Assembly (NCBI RefSeq): GCF_000427625.1 | Contig: NZ_KE386569.1 | Span: 2,340,899-2,404,898, forward strand | From: Methylobacter luteus IMV-B-3098 | GTDB lineage: Bacteria > Pseudomonadota > Gammaproteobacteria > Methylococcales > Methylomonadaceae | Length of the DNA: 64,000 nt | Reading direction: 5' to 3' | In this document: in pieces, positions 35,388 through 35,786 of the stretch | Position numbering within the stretch: position 1 is the stretch's first letter | How the letters are laid out: each line of letters begins with the position of its first letter | Position numbers and translations under genes: made by a program | The notes under the pieces: model-generated | Told to the model about the DNA's origin: nothing | The model's database searches: none | Seen by the model: the letters and a program-made list of their open reading frames with translations, nothing else

Positions 35388-35403
35388 AGCAAGGGCCGTG
35401 CCA
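35388..35403 (-). promoter_or_regulatory. Sigma-54 promoter of the nif operon
   Basis: The minus strand reads TGGCACGGCCCTTGCT, an exact match to the sigma-54 consensus TGGCACG-N4-TTGCT. It lies 49 bases upstream of the nifH start codon and about 100 bases downstream of a NifA-type site. Confidence 0.92.
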
Positions 35404-35501
35404 ATCGTTGGAAGCAATAATAAGCTTATGATTTTAATGATTAAATTAGAGTGCGTGGCGGTTTGTGCCTGCGTAGTATTGCGGACATTTTGTAGGGTTT
35501 A

Positions 35502-35517
35502 TGTCGGCTTGCTCACA
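35502..35517. promoter_or_regulatory. NifA upstream activator site for nifH
   Basis: The sequence TGTCGGCTTGCTCACA fits TGT-N10-ACA, the NifA binding site, about 100 bases upstream of the nifH sigma-54 promoter, the typical distance. Confidence 0.8.
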
Positions 35518-35538
35518 GTGGGACTGTATATGTATGTG

Positions 35539-35612
35539 CAGGCTGGGTTGGAGCTTTAGCGGAAACCCGGCATGGACGGCTTCGAAATGCCGGGTTTATC
35601 AACCCGGCCTAC
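35539..35612. repeat. GTAGGCTGGGTT palindromic repeat, copy 4
   Basis: A full unit, CAGGCTGGGTTGGAGCTTTA to TTATCAACCCGGCCTAC, in the divergent nifH/SIR2-like control region between the two NifA-type sites. Confidence 0.75.
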
Positions 35613-35625
35613 CTGTAACTCTGTA

Positions 35626-35643
35626 GAGTACGCAATGCGTACC
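35626..35643. repeat. GGTACGCANTGCGTACC palindrome in the nif control region
   Basis: AGTACGCAATGCGTACC lies between the two divergent nif promoters. It belongs to the same family as 32823 and 37987. Confidence 0.55.
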
Positions 35644-35667
35644 TTTTTAGCTGGGATTTGTTGGAAA

Positions 35668-35683
35668 TGTCGCGAACAGAACA
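35668..35683. promoter_or_regulatory. NifA upstream activator site for the SIR2-like gene
   Basis: TGTCGCGAACAGAACA fits TGT-N10-ACA and lies about 90-100 bases upstream of the sigma-54-like promoter at 35771. Confidence 0.65.
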
Positions 35684-35770
35684 ATCGATGTTGGGAAATA
35701 CGCGACATTGGGCGTTCATGCCGACAATAAGTGATTGTTATTTATTAGGTAAAAGACGATTAATGGCAAT

Positions 35771-35786
35771 TGGAGTGCTTTTTGCT
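35771..35786 (+). promoter_or_regulatory. Sigma-54 promoter of the SIR2-like gene
   Basis: The plus strand reads TGGAGTGCTTTTTGCT. The GG and GC elements have correct spacing, and the -12 box TTGCT is perfect; the -24 box deviates at two positions from TGGCACG. It lies 40 bases upstream of the ATG at 35827. Confidence 0.7.

Follow-up and report, generated by a model that had tools for sequence, protein, structure and literature searches.

Analysis of the window, by which we mean the whole 64-kb stretch of DNA (64,000 nucleotides), pointed to two back-to-back NifA/sigma-54 control units between nifH and a SIR2-like gene. One unit would drive nifHDKT, and the other would drive the methanotroph counterpart of pnfA, which would encode an accessory protein that supports nitrogenase; we assign this reading a probability of roughly 0.8. 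The regulatory arrangement is already known for what this gene, judged by analogy, very probably is, namely pnfA of Pseudomonas stutzeri A1501. What is added here is the breadth of its conservation and the evidence for a degenerate sirtuin. As a result, a little-studied nitrogenase helper named in Pseudomonas is now tied to methanotrophs and to 23 of the 27 nifH-positive gammaproteobacterial genomes sampled, and there is a concrete reason to doubt the deacetylase label on one of these "SIR2 family" proteins. The features of the region, with their positions in the window, are as follows.

34464-35339, minus strand: nifH (nitrogenase Fe protein), head of nifHDKT; TIGR01287 match over the cut-off at G000:C1:2375404-2376228
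35388-35404, minus strand: sigma-54 (-24/-12) promoter of nifH, TTGGCACGGCCCTTGCT
35502-35517: predicted NifA-type upstream site TGT-N10-ACA for nifH, TGTCGGCTTGCTCACA
35563-35597: dispersed hairpin, outside the control unit, AAACCCGGCAT-N13-ATGCCGGGTTT
35666-35709: inverted repeat around the SIR2-side activator site (arms 35666-35674 and 35701-35709), AATGTCGCG-N26-CGCGACATT
35668-35683: predicted NifA-type upstream site TGT-N10-ACA for the SIR2-like gene, TGTCGCGAACAGAACA
35770-35786, plus strand: sigma-54 promoter of the SIR2-like gene, TTGGAGTGCTTTTTGCT, GG-N10-GC
35827-36690, plus strand: SIR2-like gene, probable pnfA orthologue, 287 aa, 32.6 kDa

The original prediction described a perfect sigma-54 promoter with a TGT-N10-ACA site facing nifH, and the sequence confirms both elements; the parts of the promoter on the minus strand are TTGGCACG-GCCC-TTGCT (35388-35404). 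The opposite-facing promoter is likewise present, with correct GG/GC spacing and its own TGT-N10-ACA site, the first base of which lies 103 bases ahead of the -24 TGG, and 40 bases separate the end of this promoter from the ATG at 35827. An overlapping second sigma-54-like core at 35764 (TGGCAATTGGAGTGC) scored slightly above the core at 35771 with an ad hoc matrix, but it was set aside as the SIR2 promoter, as the conserved core is that at 35771. The matrix was built on a general consensus and was used for a first look only, and all counts reported here were obtained with the plain pattern. Thus, the features of a NifA/sigma-54 promoter were all found: a GG-N10-GC element, an upstream TGT-N10-ACA on one helical face and a NifA encoded in the window genome.

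Taken by itself, TGT-N10-ACA was no more frequent than chance genome-wide, with 663 places versus 681 for the reversed control. The strict core, TGG-N8-TTGC, was found 22 times in the 64-kb window (both strands), and four of these 22 cores had a TGT-N10-ACA 65-120 bases upstream. The four promoter/site pairs comprised the nifH unit, the SIR2 unit and one pair in each of two identical insertion-sequence copies. Such pairs can therefore be chance, and it is conservation that decides. Identical transposase-family ORFs were located at 578-1078 and 62984-63484 on the same strand (one tested: HTH_Tnp_1), and the nif genes of the window are flanked by two copies of one insertion sequence.

Conservation was assessed on the best 80 of 125 relatives from one scan of a bacterial genome collection. 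Promoters were counted in 78 loci, i.e. the window and 77 of the 80 relatives, leaving out L065, L086 and L106, which had fewer than 110 bases upstream. The strict core was present at -66 to -45 in 56 of the 78 loci, where shuffles gave a mean of 0.12 and a maximum of 1, and the wider range of -160 to -40 raised the number to 66 (shuffled mean 1.0, maximum 3); several of the misses hold a GG-N10-GC core in which the leading T is replaced by another base. Additionally, 65 loci could be scored for the activator site, as 13 more had no recognised promoter or fewer than 150 bases upstream; 46 of the 65 had a TGT-N10-ACA with its first base 66-220 bases before the TGG, against a mean of 2.6 and a maximum of 6 in shuffles. 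Promoter and site were both kept in all 34 copies at least 70% identical (window included) versus 12 of the 31 scorable copies below 70%, the other 19 having no exact site in the 66-220 range. One of these 19, L092, has an exact site at 55 bases, and 17 of the remaining 18 distant copies (within L080-L108) carry, 59-61 bases ahead of the promoter, a site with one mismatch, so that activation there may differ, perhaps through a different activator arrangement.

The distances between site and promoter were also informative. In the 30 non-redundant copies at least 70% identical, all of which contain the site, the distances were 70, 79-82, 93, 101-104 and 111-114 bases. The phasing reached R = 0.79 near 10.75 bp, a value as high as which was seen in none of 5000 random sets, although shared descent makes this figure too strong. 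Such clustering at helical distances is as expected if the activator binds to a single face of the DNA.

A second set, which overlaps the first, comprised 22 genomes whose copy is at least 70% identical and matches over nearly the full length. The core was at -66 to -45 in 18 of the 22, and 17 of those 18 also had the site, the exception being G029, which has no exact one. In G004, the core and sites were present but further up, at -180; in G025, the core was at -102 with no site; and no strict core was found between -200 and -40 in G036 and G046. The original prediction had named loss of the promoter from close relatives that keep the gene as evidence against co-regulation. We found no loss in the nearest kin (3 of 3 congeners and 34 of 34 copies), but further out such evidence was seen in part, as the promoter was missing in G036 and G046. 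In G046 (locus L022), the gene itself is intact, at a distance of 14 kb from nifH. The SIR2-like gene of G025 and G036 comes after co-directional homologues of the nif-linked leucine-rich-variant (LRV) and ORF384 genes, in G036 at 65 bases behind the ORF384 homologue, and may thus be transcribed with them. In the window, ORF384 (28158-29312, 384 aa) adjoins the LRV protein, and a Pfam search of it gave no hit at E up to 1; L016, L017 and L023 have homologues of ORF384 next to the SIR2-like gene, the one in L023 being broken.

A comparison of the intergenic region across relatives, which the original prediction had proposed as a check, showed that both strict promoters were kept in all 25 divergent nifH/SIR2 intergenic regions (the window and 24 relatives). 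At least two TGT-N10-ACA sites were found in 24 of the 25, and the nifH-side site was 158-170 bases from the nifH ATG in 24 of 25, with L063 as the exception. In 11 loci, the 6-kb flanks were complete and held no nifHDK hit; nine of these keep the strict core, and four (L048, L059, L060 and L061, the ones at least 70% identical) have the exact site as well.

Two repeat elements between the units, for which no coordinates were given, had been suggested as possible insulators, and their description proved partly right. The element at 35563-35597 is indeed a dispersed hairpin (AACCCGGCAT-N13-ATGCCGGGTT), with further window copies at 31105-31139 and 61652-61686; these three copies compare with 0 expected from 100 shuffles, and with up to two mismatches the hairpin occurs at 31 places genome-wide versus 0 for the reversed control. 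The other element is an inverted repeat within a stretch unique in the genome, and we rejected the SIR2-side activator site as a dispersed repeat, as its 96-base stretch matched itself only in a genome search, save for 23 bases at E 0.78. Insulation is not supported, because the hairpin was present in one of the 25 intergenic regions, that of the window, and absent from all 24 relatives, and because the inverted repeat encloses the activator site.

To describe the gene and its surroundings, we turn to its distribution. The nearest named copy among the matches listed, which may omit the window's own genome or very close ones, was that of Methylobacter marinus A45 (95%), and no Pseudomonas was found among the best 80 of 125 loci. 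The fetched stretch contained nifH in 55 of the 80 loci, and in all 55 it was upstream on the opposite strand; the remaining 25 were short stretches or had no nifH within reach. In 61 relatives, nifH was called by a profile match over the cut-off. All 25 relatives with such a match carry the family (21 the close gene and four the distant homologue), whereas among the 36 nifH-negative relatives an intact copy was found in one, G007, which is 77% complete and has a nifH fragment only. Broken copies were present in G026 and G028, neither of which has nifH over the cut-off; G028 is 76% complete. A class sample comprised 276 genomes, of which 27 had nifH, 24 the family and 23 both. The family was therefore present in 23 of 27 nifH-positive versus 1 of 249 nifH-negative genomes (Fisher p ~2e-28); the single case, G296, has the SIR2-like gene at a contig end and no nifH was found in it. 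Thus, restriction to diazotrophs holds for the SIR2-like gene with G296 and G007 as exceptions. Four of the 27 nifH-positive genomes (G113, G120, G218 and G233) had no family member, so nitrogen fixation does not strictly require the gene. The 24 positive genomes of the class sample each matched a single subfamily. In part of the class-sample genomes, scoring covered the best eight candidates. In 15 of the 80 loci, the 2 kb downstream hold an ORF of cluster 9, whose representative belongs to the hemerythrin family (one tested). This ORF, at L087:6831-7262 and in 14 other loci, is a possible co-transcribed oxygen-binding partner of the SIR2-like gene.

The sole Pfam match of the window protein was SIR2_2 (E 1.7e-6, 28.7 bits versus a gathering cut-off of 24.5), and no NCBIfam match was found at E up to 1. 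The AlphaFold2 model had a mean pLDDT of 88.9 and a pTM of 0.89. The best fold matches in the PDB were the SIR2 domains of DSR2, KomC and ThsA, with TM of ~0.6, 9-17% identity and Foldseek E values from 2e-9 to 5e-7 among the best 50 matches listed. When the PDB was searched by sequence, neither the window protein nor its alignment brought up SIR2 relatives; these were obtained by the fold search only.

The fold bears on the proposal made by Yan et al. for PnfA, an electron-transfer or oxygen-protection protein resembling ETF or UspA. The mutant phenotype in P. stutzeri is reported to depend on oxygen and nitrate (PMC2820453), which is in line with such a role, as are the hemerythrin-family ORFs downstream in 15 of 80 loci. 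However, the resemblance published in the same report is about 31% over residues 176-240 (PMC2820453), and the predicted fold is closest to SIR2 domains, with SIR2_2 as the only family recognised by Pfam. We consider this role unlikely, although it is the alternative that fares best.

We examined the catalytic positions in an alignment of 75 copies, which leaves out L064, L066, L071, L072, L086 and L106, the readings of which do not start with Met; alignment A1 was made from 44 sequences, namely the window plus 43 of the 80 loci. Across the 75 copies, a D-x-N-R-D motif had invariant Asn, Arg and Asp, and the catalytic Asn of the TTNYD motif, N114, was kept in 75 of 75. At the position of the catalytic His in the K-x-H-G motif, 40 copies have Met and 35 have Leu, and no copy has His. 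The register of the motifs was set through the canonical relative L141, in which TTNYD and KIHG align with KomC; by count, the histidine of the KomC KFHG motif is H146, which has been altered in entry 9xvc. Against the family profile, the KIHG of L141 fell on KPMG with low probability, whereas L139 and L140 gave no usable alignment and L144 left the KIHG stretch unaligned. In the distant nif-linked subfamily, the position of the catalytic Asn is occupied by Trp in nine of nine rows, and there is no His; these rows include the SIR2 family protein of Rhizobium etli p42d and leave out L136, which is the same gene as L026. On the evidence of these alignments, the SIR2-like protein apparently no longer has a key catalytic residue and seems to be a degenerate sirtuin.

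These residues weigh on a second alternative, in which the protein would be an active sirtuin deacetylase acting on nitrogenase or NifA. This role was suggested for a Zymomonas mobilis member, ZMO1821, which is reported to rise under N2 fixation and is called a likely deacetylase, with NifA, NifH and NifK described as acetylated in the same organism (PMC8600466). The SIR2_2 match and the invariant Asn of TTNYD are also in its favour. Nevertheless, for the copies studied here a deacetylase role is doubtful, because all 75 copies, in an alignment that does not contain ZMO1821, have Met or Leu where the catalytic His (KomC H146) aligns, and because the distant subfamily has Trp for Asn in all nine rows. 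We thus regard an active deacetylase as rather improbable.

Another alternative links the SIR2-like protein to the ADP-ribosylation of NifH, either as a substitute for the DraT/DraG switch or in its service. An ORF of cluster 8 lies between nifH and the SIR2-like gene in 18 of the 80 loci, and the one representative tested was confirmed as DraT (PF07357, E 5e-105); a cluster 12 ORF, the representative of which belongs to the ADP-ribosylglycohydrolase family, was found in eight loci. A replacement would also suit the window genome (G000), in which no PF07357 match was found although the three congeners searched have one. This absence is perhaps a recent loss. However, among the 25 nifH-positive relatives, all 12 with DraT and all 13 without it have the family, counted as either subfamily, by which DraT was rejected as a required partner, and the SIR2 catalytic His is missing. 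A link of this kind therefore appears rather improbable. Finally, it is hardly credible that the second sigma-54 unit matches by chance and that the gene is constitutive. The parity of TGT-N10-ACA with its reversed control, the pairs inside insertion-sequence copies and the two of 22 relatives without the promoter would favour this reading, but against it stand the conservation of both elements (34 of 34 and 17 of 22 copies), the helical phasing and retention at loci away from nifHDK.

The central claim of the original prediction, that the SIR2-like gene is switched on together with nitrogenase, is therefore well supported on comparative grounds, by the conservation of promoter and site and the helical phasing, and by analogy with the pnfA and Rcc03262 precedents. 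NifA is active at low fixed nitrogen and low oxygen. In the back-to-back arrangement, active NifA would bind both TGT-N10-ACA sites and, being on the same helix face as each promoter, would open the sigma-54 polymerase, so that the SIR2-like protein and nitrogenase would be made together. The SIR2-like protein would then act after transcription. Judging from its fold and motifs, this degenerate SIR2-fold protein probably binds NAD or a related nucleotide, presumably without sirtuin chemistry, and it may help to keep nitrogenase working when oxygen or nitrate respiration shifts the redox state. More broadly, we put forward as a tentative possibility that this is a catalytically dead sirtuin family with two divergent, interchangeable subfamilies, widespread in the proteobacterial nif regulon, which would sense NAD(H) or ADP-ribose and tune nitrogenase to the redox state independently of DraT.

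We compared the window gene with known systems. The closest is pnfA (PST1325), named by Yan et al. in 2010, which in P. stutzeri A1501 is divergent from nifH (PMC2820453). It has a -24/-12 promoter and a TGT-N10-ACA site, and its expression is reported to need nifA and rpoN (PMC2820453). According to the same report, a non-polar pnfA mutant had 23% of wild-type nitrogenase activity at 0.5% oxygen and lost nitrate-supported fixation, with no significant change described for nifH transcription, and homologues were reported in diazotrophs only (PMC2820453). PST1325 also appears in an expression table (PMC6053447), and PST_1325 is termed a SIR2 family protein in a later paper (PMC11332353). The window gene is similarly divergent from nifHDK, has its own -24/-12 promoter and TGT-N10-ACA site, and encodes a protein of 32.6 kDa versus about 31.7 kDa for PnfA. 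Judged on position, size, promoter and annotation, it is a probable pnfA orthologue. The two differ in their host and surroundings: PST1324, PST1323 and nifY2 have numbers adjoining that of pnfA (PMC2820453), whereas the neighbour in the window is a cation-transporter-like ORF, named by eye. In the literature searched, no paper combined Methylobacter, nifH and SIR2, and two, one of them PMC5923616, named pnfA together with nitrogenase. SIR2-like genes are listed in nif clusters (PMC9412634, PMC8594446).

SIR2 family proteins are likewise found in nif operons of Rhodobacter capsulatus (Rcc03262, by annotation only) and R. etli p42d. Rcc03262 was reported as not found in the proteome of a nifA double mutant (PMC6925177). 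The R. etli p42d protein, encoded in the order nifB, 4Fe-4S protein, nifZ, nifT and SIR2, matches at 27% identity and has neither catalytic residue. DSR2, ThsA and KomC, the best fold matches, are SIR2-domain NADases of phage defence. Unlike these, the window family has Met or Leu at the His position, the window protein has 287 aa with no second domain recognised by Pfam, and the distribution of the family follows that of nifH.
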